Origin: an uncultured Ruminococcus sp. | GTDB lineage: Bacteria; Bacillota; Clostridia; Oscillospirales; Ruminococcaceae | Assembly (NCBI RefSeq): GCF_902762735.1 | Contig: NZ_CACWPP010000042.1 | Span: 1 to 38,254, forward strand | Length of the DNA stretch: 38,254 nucleotides | Direction of reading: 5' to 3' | In this document: positions 21,572-24,038 of the stretch, piece by piece | Layout: the number at the start of each line of letters is the position of its first letter | Numbering within the stretch: position 1 is the stretch's first letter | Translations under genes and position numbers: made by a program | The notes under the pieces: generated by a model | What the model saw: only the letters and a program-made list of their open reading frames with translations | The model's database searches: none | Told to the model about the DNA's origin: nothing

Positions 21572-21867
21572 AAAAACGGGCAGAGAAACTCTACCCGCTT
21601 TATCCTAAAAAAATTGCCGCCTTGCCGTCGCATAGAAGATAAACCCGCAAAAATTTGCAGGGTGGGTAAGACGACCTTTGAGCCTCATGATCCCTTCGTC
21701 CGTAGACCGAACGGCAATTGCGGTTCGGGCGGGAGGTCTTCAATCTTCACTAAGAGTGCGAATCCCTTTTAGTAAGTGTTGGATTTACAATATCTATGCT
21801 TGATCGTACAAGGTAGCAATCAAAAAACTTATTTTGTTTTCAGAAGTCTTGCGGCTTCCTTTATGTT
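21572..21867 (-). ncRNA. Candidate structured small RNA with own promoter and terminator
   Basis: About 295 nt on the minus strand with no convincing ORF. The promoter TTGCAA (21897-21902), 17 bp, TATAAT (21874-21879) is followed by a start near 21867. The end is a strong terminator, stem CGGGTAGAG / CTCTGCCCG (21577-21597) then TTTTT. In between are nested inverted repeats: GAAGAT pairing with ATCTTC, AAGAC with GTCTT, and CCGAAC with GTTCGG. It sits between DUF1292 and the alcohol dehydrogenase. It does not obviously match the 6S, SRP, tmRNA or RNase P signatures I know. Confidence 0.6.
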
Positions 21868-21970: not shown

Positions 21971-22294
21971 TTATTCCTCGTCGTCCTCGAAATCGAACAT
22001 CTCGTCAAGACGCTCCTCAAAAGCCGCGCCTACGCGGTCGAACAGCTCTTCGTCCTCGATGGAAGCCAGTATCTCCTCGCCTGTCTCGGGATCGTATTCA
22101 ACTTTGAGGATCACCAGCAGCGAAGCCTCGTCGAGTATCTTGTCAGCGTCATCTTCTTCAAAATAGGGGGTCAGCGCGTAATATCTCTCGTCCTCGAAAT
22201 CCATGCAGTCCAGCAGTTCAAAGGTCTGCTTGTTGCCCTGCTCGTCCATCAGCTCATAAAGATCGGGGGTGTACTCATTCATCTGCTCGTCCAT
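21971..22294 (-). CDS. DUF1292 family acidic protein
   Basis: 107-residue acidic protein of the DUF1292 (YrzB-like) family, widespread in Firmicutes and of unknown function. Recognised by the small beta-rich core DLYELMDEQGNKQTFELLDCMDF, then ERYYALTPYF and SLLVILKVEYDPETGEEILASIEDEELFDRVGAAFEERL. Nearly a third of residues are Asp or Glu. Clear GGAGG site and ATG. It has its own promoter at 22361-22389. It is often found near yrrK/yrzL in other Firmicutes, but not here. Confidence 0.92.
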   Translation of the reverse strand: MDEQMNEYTPDLYELMDEQGNKQTFELLDCMDFEDERYYALTPYFEEDDADKILDEASLLVILKVEYDPETGEEILASIEDEELFDRVGAAFEERLDEMFDFEDDEE

Positions 22295-22468: not shown

Positions 22469-22497
22469 TTGACAAAGTACAAAAGATGTGGTATAGT
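22469..22497 (+). promoter_or_regulatory. Strong promoter of the long non-coding transcript
   Basis: TTGACA (22469-22474), exactly 17 bp, TATAGT (22492-22497), in an AT-rich context. It points into the 1.35-kb region without a long ORF; start expected near 22504. Confidence 0.88.
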
Positions 22498-23034
22498 ATA
22501 TTCAAGGAAAAGGAAAGCACATAAAACCGATAAAACGGTGGCGGTGATGAGCTGTGAGGCACGTTGTTATCGTTGGGTCTCGGTAATAAAGCTGATAGTT
22601 CCTTAAATGTGAGATATTCTCGGGTGAGAGTAAAGGTACTGCAAATAGTCCCGGGTGAGAACCTGTTTCACCAAGCAGTGCAGACTCCGCAGATGTCTTA
22701 GTTTGTTATGAGAGGAGCGAGTCCGATGGATGTAAGCGAGAGCCTTTTGAGTGTTCAGGGCTCGTACATTTCTTGATATAAAGCGGGAACATGACTCAGA
22801 CGTATGGGCTGACAGTTCTAAACAAAATAGTGTTATCGGGAAGAAGAAATAAACGGTCCGCAGGGAAGTTTCAGCAGTTCGTTTATACAATATGAATACT
22901 CAACGTTACAATTGAATATGTACCTGCTGTGGGTGGGACGGCGTGAAGTCGGCTCACATGGCGGGTCTTGATAAAAGTCCACTGTTCGGGCGCGGTACAT
23001 AGATCAGTGTACGCAAGAGACCGAGCATTTGAGA

Positions 23035-23550
23035 GTTAGGAGTGAGTCCACCAGTTTAATTAGACTTGACCTCCGAACGCGGGAGGTATCCCGACTATGG
23101 CGCTTATGGCGCAAATATCCCGAAAGGAAAGAAGACCGATGGCATAATTGGTTTTTAACTATCGAAAATCGGCGGCGGGTGAGCCGCACAAATCAATATA
23201 GGGAGTGGTGCATTATGAAAATGCGCGCTAGACTGCTGAATATCTAAATGTTAGGAGTGAGTCCGAAGGGTAATGCAGCTTAGTTCCTGAGCTAGAGGAA
23301 CACCCCGACAATGGCGCTTATGGCGCAAATATCCCGAAAGGAAAGAAGACCGATGGCATAATTGGTTTTAACTATCGAATATCGGCGGCGTGAGAGCCGC
23401 ACAGATCAATATAGGGAGTGGTGCATTATGAAAATGCGCGCTAGACTGCTGAATATCTAAATGTTAGGAGTGAGTCCGAAGGTACATGCAGCTTAGTTCC
23501 TGAGCTAGAGGAACGTCCCGACAATGGCGCTTATGGCGCAAATATCTTAC
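23035..23550 (+). repeat. 213-215-bp tandem repeats in the non-coding transcript
   Basis: Units start with GTTAGGAGTGAGTCC at 23035, 23250 and 23463 (periods 215 and 213). The first two are full length. The third matches only to about 23546, after GGCGCTTATGGCGCAAATAT. Most differences lie in the 40-nt stretch after the start, where a hairpin changes by compensatory replacement. Copies 1 and 2 both encode a 10-residue frame, MKMRARLLNI, at 23215-23247 and 23428-23460, each with GGGAG 9 nt ahead. Confidence 0.92.
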
Positions 23551-23803
23551 GAAAGGTGATCAGACCGATGGCTTGATTATTTGCCGCTGATGCGGTGTTC
23601 TGCTAAAATATATTGAAAGGTAACAAGACCAATGAGAAGCTGAGTTTTATTTGACTGTATTATCTCTACCGAAAGGAAAACAGATCCTGATGGATTTATA
23701 TATATACCTGCGCGTTTGCTATGAGTCTGCTTGCGATGCGGGTGACGGGTCTCGTTCAAACTTTCTGTATATTGTTAGAAAGGAATCAATCCCAATGGCT
23801 TAA
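23122..23803 (+). repeat. Six copies of a GAAAGG-spacer-ATG motif
   Basis: GAAAGG occurs at 23122, 23336, 23551, 23615, 23671 and 23778, followed in five cases by 11 nt, and once by 13, then ATG. The spacer ends in GACCG, GACCA, CCTG or CCCA. Four read ATG-GCN-stop and one ATG-AGA-AGC-TGA. The fifth opens a 38-codon frame (23690-23806) that closes on the TAA of the sixth. The last three copies lie outside the long repeats and differ in flanks, so the motif itself is being conserved. Confidence 0.8.
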
Positions 23804-23815
23804 TGTAGATCACCC

Positions 23816-23847
23816 GAGAGCTGCCGAGTTTACGGCAGCTCTCTTTG
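23816..23847 (+). terminator. Terminator of the long non-coding transcript
   Basis: Perfect 11-bp stem GAGAGCTGCCG (23816-23826) / CGGCAGCTCTC (23833-23843), loop AGTTTA, then TTTGTT, a modest T tract. Confidence 0.8.
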
Positions 23848-23923
23848 TTATGTCGATATTTTCGTCGTATGTTACAATTTGAAAACGTTTTCTGCCATAA
23901 AGGTAAATTCGGTTAACAAAGAC

Positions 23924-23951
23924 TTGATTTTTGTGAAATTTCTGGTATAAT
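23924..23951 (+). promoter_or_regulatory. Promoter of the Spo0A-domain gene
   Basis: TTGATT (23924-23929), 16-bp spacer, TATAAT (23946-23951); transcription start near 23958. Confidence 0.8.
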
Positions 23952-23987
23952 TTGTATTGTCCGATGCTTGTGACGGACAATACAAAT
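23950..23987 (+). promoter_or_regulatory. 14-bp palindrome at the transcription start of the Spo0A-domain gene
   Basis: ATTTGTATTGTCCG (23950-23963) and CGGACAATACAAAT (23974-23987) are exact inverse complements with a 10-nt loop. The palindrome starts within the -10 box and covers the start site. It could be an operator or a 5'-terminal mRNA hairpin. A second hairpin, GGCAGG-AAATA-CCTGCC, follows at 23998-24014. Confidence 0.85.
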
Positions 23988-24038
23988 CAATAACAGAGGC
24001 AGGAAATACCTGCCCGAATTCGGAGGGATTGAGATATT

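Follow-up and report, generated by a model that had tools for sequence, protein, structure and literature searches.

6S RNA occupies RNA polymerase by imitating an open promoter, and sponge RNAs of the CsrB/RsmZ type carry many repeated GGA motifs per RNA. Lambda bar RNA is a natural minigene, a two-codon ORF, and attenuator leader peptides are short ORFs beside hairpins. GOLLD, ROOL and OLE are large, structured RNAs whose primary function is unknown; GOLLD is said to bind ribosomes in pull-downs (PMC12286853). The minigene mg2 of axe-txe is reported to be a two-codon ORF translated without serving for its peptide (PMC8708949).

The locus described here lies in a 38,254-nt stretch of Ruminococcus DNA, analyzed as a whole and called the window, and appears to specify what we term the array RNA. 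Like GOLLD, ROOL and OLE, this RNA would be large, structured and of no known primary function. It differs from them in having no Rfam match, in lying on the chromosome beside a DUF1292 gene and a probable 6S RNA, and in consisting of tandem modules with Shine-Dalgarno (SD)-led micro-ORFs over roughly 745–1805 nt. Many of its sites have the composition of natural minigenes (SD, AUG, one codon, stop); however, the lambda bar and axe-txe minigenes are single and sit inside other transcripts, whereas 29 transcripts hold 312 sites, AUG-less ones included, at 1–19 per transcript (median 10). As in CsrB/RsmZ, GGA motifs recur many times in one RNA, but here an in-frame start and stop follow the motif and gaps are at least 43 nt. 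Short ORFs beside hairpins are shared with attenuators; in contrast to these, no downstream gene is constant among those tested, and the RNA ends in a terminator. 6S RNA has another sequence, structure and size, yet would be alike in occupying a general machine if our model is right, and a probable copy lies one gene away. A stand-alone RNA built of ribosome-docking micro-ORFs was not found in searches of the open-licence literature. Our preferred reading, plausible though tentative, is that of a structured RNA that would dock many ribosomes on micro-ORFs and act by occupancy, not through a protein product.

Judged from its sequence, the locus looks like one conserved and apparently terminated transcription unit on the plus strand, with these features:

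22469..22497, plus strand: promoter TTGACA-17-TATAGT with TG before the -10 box, 11 of 12 consensus letters
22547..22606, plus strand: possible 19-codon ORF (MSCEARCYRWVSVIKLIVP), weak; a similar frame only in the R. albus-like relatives L036-L039
22718..22764, plus strand: ORF1 hairpin CGAGUCC/GGGCUCG enclosing the start codon, compared in 31 sequences
22726..22776, plus strand: ORF1, 16 codons, MDVSESLLSVQGSYIS, SD AGGAG 8 nt upstream
22909..22919, plus strand: CAATTGAATAT element, close to where the 5' domain ends
23042..23059, plus strand: SD site without AUG, copy 1, frame GUG-AGU-CCA-CCA-GUU-UAA, SD at 23038-23042
23069..23087, plus strand: hairpin H1, copy 1, ACCTCC/GGAGGT, covarying
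23139..23147, plus strand: micro-ORF MA-stop (ATG GCA TAA), SD AAAGGA
23215..23247, plus strand: 10-codon ORF MKMRARLLNI-stop, copy 1, SD GGGAG
23257..23283, plus strand: SD site without AUG, copy 2, frame VSPKGNAA-stop
23283..23301, plus strand: hairpin H1, copy 2, GTTCC/GGAAC, covarying
23353..23361, plus strand: micro-ORF MA-stop (ATG GCA TAA), copy 2
23428..23460, plus strand: 10-codon ORF MKMRARLLNI-stop, copy 2
23470..23496, plus strand: SD site without AUG, copy 3, frame VSPKVHAA-stop
23568..23576, plus strand: micro-ORF MA-stop (ATG GCT TGA)
23632..23643, plus strand: micro-ORF MRS-stop (ATG AGA AGC TGA)
23690..23803, plus strand: SD-led ATG where relatives have MEI-stop; 37 codons, ending at the stop of the next micro-ORF
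23795..23803, plus strand: micro-ORF MA-stop (ATG GCT TAA)
23816..23850, plus strand: intrinsic terminator, 11-bp stem at 23816-23843, then TTTGTTATGT

The consensus promoter and 11-bp terminator of the original prediction are both present. All 19 aligned 5' ends, which were chosen by similarity to this same stretch, retain the promoter, from which we infer a transcription start near 22504. A terminator-like stem is present in 30 of the 34 transcripts examined, window included, and the remaining four are cut by contig or locus ends; RNA length in those 30, from about the -35 box to the stem, is 745–1805 nt. In short relatives the CAATTGAATAT element lies shortly upstream of the terminator. The longest ORFs between promoter and terminator encode 72 aa on the forward and 95 aa on the reverse strand, in agreement with the predicted 1.35 kb devoid of a long ORF. 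A Pfam search with four ORFs, these two among them, returned no match above the curated cut-off (best E 0.025), and a protein remnant was rejected on that basis.

Rfam 15 should include OLE, GOLLD, ROOL, HEARO and raiA. None of its covariance models scored above gathering on the RNA of the window or on the partial or complete stretches scanned from 25 relatives; the original prediction, too, had matched no motifs to OLE, GOLLD, ROOL or HEARO. Extending the search to E 5 yielded sub-threshold matches only, the best of which (mir-1267, E 0.0051) falls outside the RNA at 23941-23997, and the RNA stretches of relatives L157 and L172 also gave only sub-threshold matches. A known RNA family was rejected on these cmscan results, which cover the window, the region itself and relatives. 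tmRNA, usually present once per genome and marked by a tRNA-like domain and a tag ORF, was likewise rejected: it has no match in the window, and the genome has a tmRNA scoring above gathering on another contig.

The tandem repeats of about 213 nt proposed originally proved real, with two near-identical copies that are 95% alike over 181 nt in register at a spacing of 213 nt, and GTTAGGAGTGAGTCC present exactly at 23035, 23250 and 23463. Shorter units of type CGAAAGGAnnnnAGACCGATGGC begin at 23121, 23335, 23550, 23614 and 23777, and CGAAAGGA...GACCGATGGC occurs five times, exact or degenerate. The two alternative hairpins said to pair despite different sequences also exist. In 26 copies of this hairpin (H1) from 8 genomes, taken from 28 found by requiring CTTAG- and CCG-type flanks (L033:5382-5457 and L040:5838-5913 were left out), its five pairs are 99.2% paired. 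Two-sided changes number 24, as against 6.6 ± 2.7 after shuffling, and covariation is 0.618 versus 0.270; neither value was reached in any of 500 shuffles. The count of further pair types was unremarkable (199 of 500 shuffles). The covariation of H1 in homologues thus supports the idea that RNA structure at the locus is under selection. A second hairpin, NCGC-loop-GCGN, follows H1 and by eye seems to change with pairing mostly kept. The pairs of the ORF1 hairpin are kept in 99.5% of cells among 31 sequences, none of which shows a two-sided change, so this hairpin lends no covariation support.

These observations invite an explanation by structure alone, whereby the GGA...UCC elements are protein sites, as in a CsrA-type sponge, or tertiary elements, and the AUG and stop codons are incidental. 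It would account for the covarying repeat hairpin, the ORF1 hairpin kept in 31 sequences, the 82 GGAGUGAGUCC-type sites without AUG, and the GG and CC that flank sites and permit a short GGA/UCC hairpin. We nevertheless consider it unlikely because of how the sites are framed and of the synonymous changes in the 10-codon ORF described below. In frame 0, a stop follows within 17 codons at all 168 SD-CC[ACG]AUG sites of the 29 transcripts, compared with 106 and 128 in frames +1 and +2, although these and the following counts are drawn from related sequences and are not independent comparisons. Closure within two codons of the AUG, which gives the minigene arrangement of SD, start, one or two codons and stop, is seen at 117 of the 168 sites, as opposed to 23 and 39 in the other frames and to 84 of 465 AUGs lacking an SD. 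All three stop codons occur (TAA 83, TGA 51, TAG 34), and of 71 sites with ATG-GCN, 61 continue with a stop as third codon and none with TGG. Even sites without AUG close in frame. At 82 SD sites of GGAGTGAGTCC type another codon, often AAG or CCN, takes the place of AUG, and the frame closes within 18 codons in 79, versus 64 and 46 in the other frames. Many of these frames read V-S-P-K-x-x-x-A-stop or V-S-P-P-R-x-L-R-[AV]-stop, and 41 of the 79 end on an Ala codon. Such sites may represent either GUG starts or 30S binding without initiation. In the window, AAG or ACC/CCN replaces AUG at 23042, 23257 and 23470, and a short V-S-P-... frame is retained.

The conserved cores look like tiny ORFs with Shine-Dalgarno sites. 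In the aligned repeat core, whose conservation this may explain, SD GGGAG precedes ATG AAA ATG CGC GCT AGA CTG CTG AAT ATC TAA; the micro-ORF reading was listed for 16 of the 19 aligned 5' ends. The degenerate units noted originally do exist, but both they and the repeat cores appear to be SD-led micro-ORFs that had been missed. The label non-coding is not supported, because the most conserved stretches behave as micro-ORFs with three kinds of stop in frame and with synonymous changes in the 10-codon ORF. The locus combines covarying pairs, in the repeat hairpin, with coding constraint. Counts of frames, stops, SD energy, AUG-less sites, ORF1 and ORF2 synonymy and spacing exclude the cut transcripts L031, L035, L084 and L094 as well as L037, a near-copy of L036 that is kept for synonymy of the 10-codon ORF. 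Arrays are shown by 29 of the 30 uncut transcripts; the most distant, L096, has little beyond ORF1 and one site by the strict definition. In an outgroup set of eight arrays from seven other genera, for which site definition was looser and ends were set by eye, 21 of 49 sites close within two codons (12 and 7 in the other frames) and 44 of 49 within 17 (35 and 35).

That the ORFs are translated for their product is a second alternative, which we regard as unlikely: a polycistronic micropeptide gene, each transcript of which would yield many copies of MKMRxRLLNI, MDVSES... and MHNFSFSEVNK, acting, for example, as signals or as peptides that bind the ribosome. The 10-codon ORF is indeed conserved at the amino-acid level. 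Among 46 distinct sequences, selected solely by the motif upstream, codons differing by one base are synonymous in frame 0 in 890 of 2367 pairwise comparisons (37.6%), versus 283 of 2478 (11.4%) and 574 of 2626 (21.9%) in the other frames. Variants such as MVMRTRLLNI-stop, MKMHKRILNI-stop, MKVKMHKRPLNI-stop, MIRMCTRRLNI-stop and MKVNTAMRRNI-stop keep start and stop, and the stop itself is TAA, TGA or TAG among relatives. An -NI-stop ending is found in 47 of the 56 AUG-bearing copies and extends to far relatives (MKVNTAMRRNI, MLKVLTVRRNI); because it is kept while length varies from 10 to 12 codons, insertions have preserved the frame. Two further copies have 15 and 16 codons, and AUG is absent from its place in 5 of 61 copies.

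A peptide product fits the rest of the array poorly. The 117 sites that are ORFs of at most three codons vary in sequence, their peptides being MA (61), MRS (9), MEI (6), ME (6), MY (6), MR (5), MV (4), MG (4), MER (3) and others; such variation of the peptide beside a constant SD, start and stop points to the ribosome and not to the peptide. ORF1, 16–18 codons long across the compared transcripts, and ORF2 lack a clear codon signal. Synonymy in ORF1 is 0.331 against 0.218 and 0.279 in the other frames, which is weak, and the 0.25 of ORF2 against 0.349 and 0.167 gives no support. The proposal that codon constraint in both is as clear as in the 10-codon ORF was not borne out, and only the 10-codon ORF shows clear coding constraint. 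Of the tested neighbors of the window, DUF1292 alone is constant, and none was recognized as an export or processing gene.

The micro-ORFs seem to be selected for start, stop, frame and spacing. Gaps of less than 40 nt are absent among 283, where about 99 would be expected for random placing, although part of this floor stems from the motif itself, which spans about 30 nt, and sites less than 12 nt apart were counted as one. The smallest gap is 43 nt and the mode is 50–59 nt (97 of 283). In another genus, L149 has eight successive starts of different ORFs at distances of 54, 52, 50, 53, 51, 52 and 49 nt, its earlier sites being 130–382 nt apart. Across the eight outgroup arrays, 15 of 41 gaps measure 49–57 nt and two are below 40 (21 and 32). 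Nine genomes have both a MIRF...-type and a MHNF...-type ORF, and in all 9 the distance between the two starts is exactly 51 nt. The idea of unusually strong SDs was dropped, since pairing energies resemble or fall short of those found before ordinary genes. Values are -10.0 for the 10-codon ORF and -9.1 for AUG-less sites, compared with -8.8 for 18 long ORFs of the window, -2.6 at random window positions and -3.7 at random transcript positions. The 168 AUG sites have a median of -6.35, weaker than genes; 25% of them are at -8 or below versus 56% of the 18 ORFs, and the 2–3-codon ORFs form the weakest class (-5.9).

Number and spacing also bear on a third alternative, that the micro-ORFs work only in cis, with ribosomes shielding the RNA from nucleases or guiding its folding while the RNA functions otherwise, for example by base pairing. 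A precedent is reported for axe-txe, where a two-codon ORF works in cis and may stabilize the mRNA (PMC8708949), and structure and ORFs do alternate along the array RNA. Up to 19 sites per RNA, at the observed spacing, exceed what protection of one place needs, and we hold this explanation to be quite unlikely.

The original prediction placed the RNA upstream of a gene with a Spo0A domain. This is true of the window, L032 and L033, but incidental, as the Spo0A_C gene lies on the far side of DUF1292 in nine other fetched loci. A Spo0A-linked leader or attenuator was rejected on this synteny, no downstream gene being constant among those tested; full-length AdhE is downstream only in the window and L032-L034. 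Just after a promoter-like site (23924-23951) and before the Spo0A_C gene, the window also holds an inverted repeat, ATTTGTATTGTCCG, whose perfectly matching 14-bp arms are separated by 10 nt (23950-23987), a possible operator or leader hairpin. On the other side of the array RNA lie two features:

21971..22294, minus strand: DUF1292 gene, divergent neighbor
21610..21822, minus strand: 6S RNA candidate beyond DUF1292 (E 5.8e-5, 32.6 bits, gathering 46.4)

DUF1292 is divergent from the RNA at 33 of 33 anchored loci (L034 and L035 being one genome). By tblastn it also adjoins arrays of g98 (L147), g135 (L148, L149), g40 (L156-L158, L171), one g118 genome (L159) and g88 (L184, fetched by its DUF1292), and it adjoins the relative L161 from another family of the order. 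The 6S candidate, although below gathering, is the sole one found in this genome and is probably 6S RNA. In relatives, 6S RNA scored above gathering in 4 of 11 stretches (L073, L147, L154, L161) and in 1 of 12 more (L076), and the order 6S, DUF1292, array RNA recurs in L073, L076, L147 and L161.

By blastn the unit was detected in 18 of 61 genomes, its own one counted, all of the same genus. A model of the 5' element (R1) matched 27 of 29 genus genomes, among them each of the 20 whose completeness is at least 90% and whose contamination does not exceed 5%, although many of these genomes supplied model sequences and match by construction. R1, which is blind to rearranged arrays, matched 8 of 295 genomes of the order, which we take to be Oscillospirales, and 1 of 245 in the class, the own one. 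Scanning named genomes for the pattern turned up 30 stretches, of which 27 are labeled Ruminococcus (including R. albus 8, AR67 and KH2T6, R. bicirculans 80/3 and sp. YE71, FC2018 and Marseille-P6503) and three from MAGs labeled Clostridiales, Clostridia and Oscillospiraceae. Other genera of the family have arrays or ORF1-type elements of differing sequence. In one set 25 of 396 genomes matched; by eye, 12 were antisense to LRR genes or chance matches and 13 were arrays, three from the own genus and ten from four others. In another, 18 of 394 matched; the own genome, G067, G254, G674, G145, G230 and G602 are candidates beside DUF1292 or with arrays, a reading that leaves out L163-L166, G700, G593, G688, G500, G534 and G717. 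L160 and L162 have one site each and no array.

Short micro-ORF arrays were also observed in g132 (L152 4960-5330, also L150, L151 and L153), with MQ-stop, M-stop, MQSH-stop, MYR-stop, MTR-stop and MW-stop. DUF1292 was not found by tblastn beside these (L150-L153) or beside the g118 arrays L154 and L155, and because the g132 arrays stand without it, micro-ORF arrays may have arisen more than once. L172-L174, from another family of the order, gave weaker R1 matches (E 2e-4 to 1e-3) and have no DUF1292 within 1.5 kb. They carry an ORF1-type hairpin element at about 1501-1567, which in L173 and L174 is divergent from an ORF that, read by eye, resembles iron-containing alcohol dehydrogenase; the L172 hairpin shows a seeming C-G to U-A exchange. 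Two MAGs have the array duplicated on two contigs with equal flank (L034/L035 in G002, L031/L032 in G024), probably an assembly effect; in G024 a contig break falls inside the array.

Decay of a protein gene or mobile element, to which tandem repeats and the lack of a long ORF might point, is so improbable as to be negligible, given no Pfam match above cut-off, the presence of the 5' element in 27 of 29 genus genomes, the constant position of the unit beside one gene, and the lack of matches to phage or plasmid records and, for the 5' element, to viral contigs, on which a phage or plasmid element was also rejected.

The ribosome-docking model that we prefer builds on modules, each with an SD, in most cases a start codon, and a stop in the same frame 2–18 codons on; in the repeats, hairpins separate the modules. 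Ribosomes would initiate at each site and terminate almost at once, so that one RNA might carry many side by side, often about 50–55 nt apart. The frequent -NI-stop of the 10-codon ORF may slow termination, and each tandem duplication of 213 nt would provide the RNA with further docking sites. Against the model, the MEI-stop place of the window reads on for 37 codons. The RNA would most likely serve as a reservoir, brake or sensor of initiating ribosomes, and would be a translation-side counterpart of the probable 6S RNA one gene away, which would occupy RNA polymerase. It is possible, though doubtful, that the array RNA represents a new regulatory class in Oscillospirales, a translational counterpart of 6S RNA that stores, counts or slows initiating ribosomes and whose sites are tuned by duplication.

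The locus illustrates how densely a region called non-coding can be packed with ORFs that usual gene finding misses because they are too short. If the model is true, these RNAs would be a natural source of 2–3-codon ORFs for studying initiation, drop-off and termination. If many ribosomes are engaged, gut and rumen bacteria would have in the array RNA a novel means of buffering translation.
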